Source: Bacteroidota bacterium (GTDB taxonomy: Bacteria > Bacteroidota > Bacteroidia > 2-12-FULL-35-15). Taken from it: DNA of 64,000 nt. The notes beneath the pieces were generated by a model. That model saw only the letters and a list, made by a program, of their open reading frames with translations, was not told the origin of the DNA and did no database searches. This document shows positions 2,435 to 49,405 of the stretch, piece after piece (positions within the stretch are counted from its first letter, which is position 1; every line of letters starts with the position of its first letter). The DNA is taken from the NCBI GenBank assembly GCA_025963725.1, contig JAOQAE010000002.1:571221-635220 (forward strand), given 5' to 3'. The position numbers and the translations under genes were made by a program.

Positions 2435-2523
2435 CCTGCTGCTTGATTTTGATTCCCTGCAAATCACGAAAAAACAATGCCAGCAGGAGCTCCGCATTCA
2501 TCATTTTATATTTATTTTTGAGC

Positions 2524-48085: not shown

Positions 48086-48865
48086 TTAATTTTTGTCCTT
48101 CGTTTTTACGAGGTCTATTTTCAGCTCGATGTTCACATCCTCCACTTTTTCCGGCACCGATTCGGTAAAGGCGTCATTCCAGTAAAGCACATTGTCCTTC
48201 TTACTGTCGCTCAGGTAAAGGAAGCCCACAATAAAATCCTCGTTCTTCTTAAAGGAGAACACCCTGTCCTTTTCCTTCATGTTCTTATACTCCTGCCCGT
48301 CCGGCGATCTCAGGGTTACTTTCGCCGGAGTGAACATTCCTATTTTATCTCCCACATAGCGGATCTTATAGCGAAGCATGATCTCCTTGCCATCCCTGTC
48401 CCAGCCATCGAGCACCAGCTTAAAGTTGCCGATAACGATCTCCTCGGCAGGAGGCAGCGGCATTGGCGGCGCCGTAACAGGCTCCACGGTGTTGCAGATG
48501 TAGAGCCCTTTTATTTTGAGCGTGCTTGCTTCCACCTTCAGGCCTTCCCCTTTCACATCGATCACCTTCGCTTCCTGCTGCCGCGGCGCAATAATGATCC
48601 AGCGGTCCTTCGAGGGCAACTCACCATTCGGCGTTGTATAATAACATTCTTCCGGCTTTATCACCAGCGTTTTATCCGTGTAGTTGGTGACCTTCACCTT
48701 TGCCTTTATGAATTCCTTTTCACTTATGCCGCCGGTGATCATAAATCGCGCATTCGGGCTTTCCACCGTAAGGTCTTCAAAAAAAACTGTTTCATACTTA
48801 ATGGTCTGCGCATGCAGGACAAAGCTCAGAGAGCAGAAAAGATAAAGTGCGGCGGTTTTTTTCAT
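48086..48865 (-). CDS. Secreted protein of unknown function
   Basis: This 259-residue protein has a signal peptide (MKKTAALYLFCSLSFVLHAQ). The mature part is beta-rich and resembles two Ig-like domains: KVKVTNYTDKTLVIKPEECY (about 55-75) and FKLVLDGWDRDGKEIMLRYK (about 148-168). These are separated by a Pro-rich hinge (PVTAPPMPLPPAEE, about 129-142). It has two cysteines (about 74 and 125) and no lipobox. I recognise no family. It ends 9 bases from the convergent LptF/G gene. Confidence 0.78.
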   Translation of the reverse strand: MKKTAALYLFCSLSFVLHAQTIKYETVFFEDLTVESPNARFMITGGISEKEFIKAKVKVTNYTDKTLVIKPEECYYTTPNGELPSKDRWIIIAPRQQEAKVIDVKGEGLKVEASTLKIKGLYICNTVEPVTAPPMPLPPAEEIVIGNFKLVLDGWDRDGKEIMLRYKIRYVGDKIGMFTPAKVTLRSPDGQEYKNMKEKDRVFSFKKNEDFIVGFLYLSDSKKDNVLYWNDAFTESVPEKVEDVNIELKIDLVKTKDKN

Positions 48866-48939
48866 AGCTGTGAATTTTAAGTGCCCAAAAATAAAAAGCG
48901 ATCTTATTGAGCGGATGCTTTAGTAAGATTTTTAAAATT

Positions 48940-49147
48940 CCGGCAGCTGTGAAGGTCCACAGGCTGCAAAAAAGATCGCATCGGCCGGGATGTTCTTCCG
49001 CAAGCAAGCAAGCCTTTAAAACGCTGGCACAAATTTATAATGTATAAAAGCAGAATCAATCTTGCAGGTTCCAAAAGCTCTTCGGACCAAAGGGAACCTG
49101 CTAAAAAGATCAAAAAGGAAGGCATCCGGAAGGAGCCTTCCTTTTTA
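48940..49147 (+). ncRNA. Candidate structured small RNA in a divergent gap
   Basis: The 330-base gap between divergent genes (48866-49195) ends in a terminator-like hairpin that neither neighbour needs. Just upstream is a strong stem, GCAGGTTCC (49064-49072) with GGAACCTGC (49093-49101), extended by ATCTT/AAGAT, with a 20-base loop holding TCTTCGGA. A smaller stem (CAGCTGTG.../CACAGGCTG near 48944-48966) lies further up. No ORF is convincing. This suggests an RNA gene of about 150-210 bases, start unknown. I do not recognise tmRNA, RNase P RNA or SRP RNA signatures; a 6S-type RNA or cis-acting leader for the next gene remain possible. Confidence 0.4.
49112..49146. terminator. Bidirectional intrinsic terminator in a divergent gap
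   Basis: AAAAAGGAAGGC (49112-49123) pairs perfectly with GCCTTCCTTTTT (49135-49146). The T-rich arm follows on the plus strand and the complement of the A-rich arm on the minus strand. Confidence 0.8.
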
Positions 49148-49195
49148 TTGAAGGCATGTTTTTTTAAACACGTTTACTGATCAACATTTAGAGCT

Positions 49196-49405
49196 ATGAA
49201 AAAATTCGGAATTATCGTACTTATCGCGGGTGTCGTGATAATGGGCATTACAGCTTACAAATTTATTGAACAGCGAAAAAGAGGAAGCGAAGAGCAGGTG
49301 CAGGACCGCAGCGTGCCTTTCCCATGGCTTCCAACAGTTGGAGCGCTGCTCACGGCAGGCGGCATCATCATGCTGGGCTCCGACAGGTTCAGAAGAGTAA
49401 GATAG
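49196..49405 (+). CDS. Small two-helix membrane protein
   Basis: This 69-residue protein has a membrane helix at about residues 4-22 (FGIIVLIAGVVIMGITAY), a charged loop (EQRKRGSEEQVQDR) and a second helix at about 45-60 (WLPTVGALLTAGGIIML) with a basic end. This is the shape of small DUF3185-like envelope proteins, but I do not claim a family. The frame is clean, with ATG and a hydrophobic pattern unlikely by chance. Confidence 0.8.
   Translation: MKKFGIIVLIAGVVIMGITAYKFIEQRKRGSEEQVQDRSVPFPWLPTVGALLTAGGIIMLGSDRFRRVR

Follow-up and report, generated by a model that had tools for sequence, protein, structure and literature searches.

A perfect terminator hairpin lies between two genes that are transcribed away from each other, where neither gene needs it; does it close a small RNA gene, gate the gene downstream, or stand alone? 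In the window (the whole stretch of DNA analysed, 64 kb), the intergenic gap at 48866-49195 separates a gene for a 259-aa protein on the minus strand (48086-48865) from one for a 69-aa small membrane protein on the plus strand (49196-49405), the divergent arrangement described in the initial annotation. That annotation suggested either a new small RNA of 150-210 nt or a leader attenuator of the 69-aa gene. The evidence reviewed here makes it probable that a free-standing small RNA gene occupies 49050-49146 (+), with a sigma-54-type promoter (most likely served by RpoN2, the product of a second rpoN gene), co-induced with the 69-aa gene and acting in trans through the tip of its first hairpin.

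Hairpins of the Gap

Two plus-strand hairpins follow one another in the gap, and both were confirmed on the sequence as first described. Stem-loop 1 (49059-49110) contains a perfect 9-bp inner stem, in which GCAGGTTCC (49064-49072) pairs with GGAACCTGC (49093-49101), and an outer extension formed by ATCTT (49059-49063) and AAGAT (49106-49110). Just downstream, an intrinsic terminator recognized from sequence (49112-49146) has the arms AAAAAGGAAGGC (49112-49123) and GCCTTCCTTTTT (49135-49146), paired at 12 of 12 positions around an 11-nt loop, with a T5 end. Only a few perfect stems of comparable length with a terminator T-tract exist in the 64 kb, and this one is among the longest. Its 5′ arm is A-rich, so that it could work on either strand, and A and T runs flank it on both sides. 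Elsewhere in the gap, an AT-rich inverted repeat (ATCTTA...TAAGAT, 48901-48935), followed by CGCTTTTTATTTTT on the minus strand, is terminator-like and sits in the 5′ region of the 259-aa gene.

Conservation and Covariation

The genus was sampled with 36 genomes by DNA search, and searches at the family and order levels gave the same 36. The RNA element is present in four of them, the source genome (G000), G014, G007, and G016. Close orthologues of the 69-aa protein (68-83% identity) are found in exactly these four genomes and in no others of the genus sample, and in each the RNA adjoins the gene, directly 5′ and in the same orientation. The 69-aa gene is thus the constant downstream neighbour, whereas the upstream neighbours vary: the 259-aa minus-strand gene in G000, the end of a TGT gene in G014, and the end of an LptF/G-family permease gene in G007 and G016. 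Since these differ, the RNA and the 69-aa gene form a conserved unit.

Three blocks are conserved among the four genomes. The first, TGGCA(C/T)AAA-TT(G/A)TNAT, lies upstream of the RNA and marks the beginning of conservation at about 49023, which places the left limit of 48940 in the initial annotation too far left. The second is stem-loop 1, in which 16 bases never vary, AAGCTCTTCGGACCAA; the third consists of the terminator and, after it, another GGCAT site. The 16 bases of the tip (AAGCUCUUCGGACCAA, 49075-49090) are identical in all four genomes, each of which contains a single site for this 16-mer, while the stem beneath them diverges. The terminator hairpin and its T-tract are kept in the relatives despite sequence change, some pairs being altered on both sides.

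The 100 nt from 49050 fold with z = -6.0, and none of 200 shuffles is equally stable. Folded alone, each of the four sequences gives the same two hairpins (z from -2.9 to -6.0). In an alignment made on sequence only, 87% of cells pair under the structure drawn on the window's copy. The compensatory changes that the initial annotation proposed to look for are present: eight pairs have changed on both sides, five of them within the nine-pair inner stem, and the structure is conserved. Covariation scores 0.314, with shuffles at 0.189 ± 0.034 and none of 500 reaching the observed value; when the partner is slid by 1-3 columns, four both-side-changed pairs at most remain and the slid structures are much worse. 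Coming from four related sequences of one genus, this covariation is supportive of an RNA structure, not conclusive.

These data bear on the proposal that the gap contains no RNA gene, only a lone bidirectional terminator (serving, for example, minus-strand transcripts that head to the gap) beside a chance hairpin. The A and T runs on both sides and the minus-strand genes beyond the 69-aa gene would suit such an arrangement. Conservation, covariation, and the invariant tip in four genomes, together with the promoter-like site discussed below, make it highly improbable. A coding function was rejected, because every reading frame across the RNA is interrupted in at least one of the four genomes. 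Manual inspection allowed a pairing between the tip and the terminator loop in G014 and in the window's copy but not in G007, and this pairing was dropped.

Relation to Described RNA Families

Rfam, searched at gathering and lenient thresholds, matched no family at the RNA, including 6S and riboswitches, which leaves the earlier hint of a 6S-type RNA unsupported. A minus-strand match to RNAIII (E = 0.009) covers the terminator only and falls far below the cut-off. A covariance-model search of 295 genomes of the class, among them part of the genus, gave no credible homologue beyond the genus. Within it, the highest-ranking look-alike (L044) is a terminator adjoining other genes. The exact 16-mer of the tip has 52 matches in 84,980 species. 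Three of these, with the stem and a clear model score, are the relatives already known, and nearly all the others lie inside long open frames. The absence of an Rfam match, cross-genome conservation, a recurring promoter type, and the invariant loop on a covarying stem, with its linkage to the 69-aa gene, all of them evident in the sequences, back the original suggestion of a possible new small RNA. It constitutes a new family within a known kind of RNA, the small RNAs, and its membership in described families is unsupported.

Predicted Promoters and Transcript Ends

Upstream of the RNA, at 49023-49042 (+), lies a promoter-like site, TGGCAC-N4-TTTATAAT (in full GC-TGGCAC-AAAT-TTATAATG; -24 GG at 49026-49027), which is conserved in the four genomes. 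The -24 element of sigma-54 promoters, TGGCA(C/T), is present in all of them. The canonical -12 TTGC is replaced at the RNA by TTTAT/TTGT, without the canonical GC and one base closer than the textbook spacing, a departure common to this promoter and those of the rpoN2 cluster. Because the -12 part is non-canonical in both sequence and spacing, the site is named here sigma-54-type, and not a canonical sigma-54 promoter. A sigma-70 promoter scan, with a model that does not represent Bacteroidota promoters, found no match.

The RNA has a predicted promoter and a predicted intrinsic terminator, both conserved. Its start is placed at about 49050 by the distance of 24 bases from the -24 GG and by the conserved GCAG(A)ATC; with the end of the T-tract at 49146, where transcription would stop, this predicts an RNA of about 97 nt (49050-49146, +), shorter than the 150-210 nt first proposed. 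Conservation, fold, and covariation agree with this anatomy. A further promoter-like site of this type, GA-AGGCAT-GTTT-TTTTAAAC (49150-49169, +), precedes the 69-aa gene; each of the four genomes has its GGCAT in the interval from terminator to gene. From this site the 69-aa gene would have its own start near 49178 and an 18-nt leader.

The second site weighs on the possibility that the RNA is a 5′ leader carrying an attenuator or riboswitch, in which the hairpin would sense a ligand or protein and the terminator would gate the 69-aa gene. The invariable position of the RNA directly 5′ of the gene fits a leader, and sensing leaders, too, typically have an invariant loop on a covarying stem and then a terminator. 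However, since a same-class promoter-like site lies downstream of the terminator, ahead of the start codon, in four of four genomes, expression of the 69-aa gene need not depend on read-through from the RNA, and inspection found no antiterminator common to the four genomes. The separate start predicted near 49178 favours an independent small RNA over the attenuator of the initial annotation, and the leader is an unlikely explanation of the locus.

The resemblance of both sites to rpoN2-cluster promoters was evaluated with a matrix trained on 24 sites of that cluster, none from the window. Among 127,962 window positions, 49023 ranks first and 49150 second; with training restricted to the two genomes without the RNA, they rank second and fourth. 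The promoter search was seeded with TGGCA, a motif that had first drawn attention at the RNA itself, so that the core is partly circular, but the columns outside it still support the assignment: scored on the columns 3′ of the TGGCA core alone, the two sites are the top two of 293, 49150 being the best. The third-best match of the matrix in the window, GCTGGCATTGTTTTTTCGTG at 2465-2484 (-), lies some 50 bases ahead of a start codon on the minus strand and may mark another regulon member.

The Second RpoN and Its Gene Cluster

The source genome carries two rpoN genes. RpoN2 has three of three sigma-54 domains and an RpoN-box-like stretch, ARRTVVKYRELLGIP. Its gene occurs in 10 of the 36 genus genomes, including the four with the RNA, an overlap whose chance is 210/58905 = 0.004 if genomes are treated as independent, although in fact they are related. 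According to a 2025 survey, about 5% of organisms carry more than one sigma-54 gene, R. sphaeroides being the example given (PMC12316311). No paper devoted to a second sigma-54 of this phylum turned up in a literature search on rpoN2 and Bacteroidetes.

The gene lies in a conserved cluster (L162 6254-18664, G000 contig C4). The products of the region include YtxH, holin-like, iron-permease-like, response-regulator, and outer-membrane beta-barrel proteins, an Fpg-like glycosylase, and topoisomerase IB. From its gene content the cluster looks like a stress-like set, resembling a sigma-54-2 stress regulon. Many of its genes are preceded by TGGCA(T/C/A)-N4-TTTTAA-like sites at -35 to -80, and TGGCA is about four times denser in the region than across loci overall. 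Genome-wide, TGGCAYN4TTTTAA occurs 10 times, several before start codons, against no occurrence of the reversed control. One perfect TGGCAYN4TTTTAA site (L172 around 1500, G000:C3:555352) is followed by no frame start of at least 50 aa within the next 400 bases and could precede another small RNA.

It is likely but unproven that RpoN2 reads the RNA promoter, and RpoN1 could read the same site. The RNA would be transcribed from the -24 promoter at 49023, most likely by RpoN2 with an enhancer-binding activator, and the 69-aa gene from a separate promoter of this type. As this type precedes both, the RNA and the 69-aa gene would be induced jointly with the stress-like rpoN2 cluster.

The 69-aa protein is apparently a two-helix membrane protein. 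Its family of small membrane proteins occurs in several families of the class (L195-L208), with the consensus GIILI..GV.MM.YTGFNYVT.EKVVD.G...I...ENHPVQWSPI.GG, and a distant paralogue lies roughly 5-8 kb from rpoN2 in six genomes. Two family members were compared with Pfam, with no match for either, and NCBIfam contains nothing that matches the one in the window. The RNA was not found beside more distant relatives of the gene in the class.

The Invariant Tip and Its Proposed Partner

The hairpin would display the invariant 16-nt tip as the proposed effector site, which would contact a partner in trans. The most likely partners are mRNAs, contacted by predicted base-pairing with CUCUUCGGACC; a protein is less likely. 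When sequences antisense to the full tip were sought, allowing up to two mismatches and limited to long matches, no target was common to the four genomes, and a protein partner therefore stays a serious rival. If the tip of an independent small RNA bound a protein instead, by sequestration or as a scaffold in the manner of CsrB or 6S, this result would be accounted for, and so would the invariance of all 16 bases, which may form a small C(UUCG)G hairpin inside the tip. However, the RNA has a single copy of the motif, unlike known sequestering RNAs, no protein partner is suggested, and the target search covered long matches only. Protein binding by the tip is accordingly given a low probability, and the mRNA-pairing small RNA is preferred.

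Comparison with Known Small RNAs

Qrr RNAs depend on sigma-54 and LuxO, are about 100 nt long, and combine a Rho-independent terminator with a strongly conserved loop region. By contrast, the RNA described here is single copy, belongs to another phylum, and has no quorum-sensing link and no Rfam match. One account presents Qrr1-5 of Vibrio as small RNAs that base-pair with mRNAs (PMC2680268). GlmY of E. coli is described in another as a sigma-54/QseF-dependent small RNA gene tied to envelope homeostasis (PMC6075780); as far as that account goes, it shares a sigma-54 promoter with this RNA, where the promoter is predicted, but it belongs to another phylum, and the window matches no Rfam family.

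The nearest precedent is Rfp36, a putative regulatory RNA of Flavobacterium psychrophilum, listed under a sigma-54 -24/-12 motif whose regulon holds envelope-stress and chaperone genes (PMC9723704). The likeness is one of description: in each case a putative or predicted small RNA of this phylum is grouped with stress or stress-like genes through a sigma-54 or sigma-54-type motif. The systems differ in that F. psychrophilum has a single sigma-54 with a typical -24/-12 motif (PMC9723704), whereas the genome studied here has two rpoN genes.

Implications

Among environmental Bacteroidota, small RNAs are poorly charted. The one described here offers a testable regulator in the second sigma-54, along with an effector sequence that is fixed and a gene as partner. 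A broader reading is offered tentatively, as one that may well not hold: in a subset of Bacteroidota, a second sigma-54 whose -12 specificity is altered (TGGCAY-N4-TTTTAA) would be dedicated to a general-stress-like regulon, in which the RNA would be a regulatory arm, paired with a small membrane protein from that regulon, and its invariant tip the effector. The promoter class could also serve to predict the regulons of RpoN2 paralogues in the phylum.
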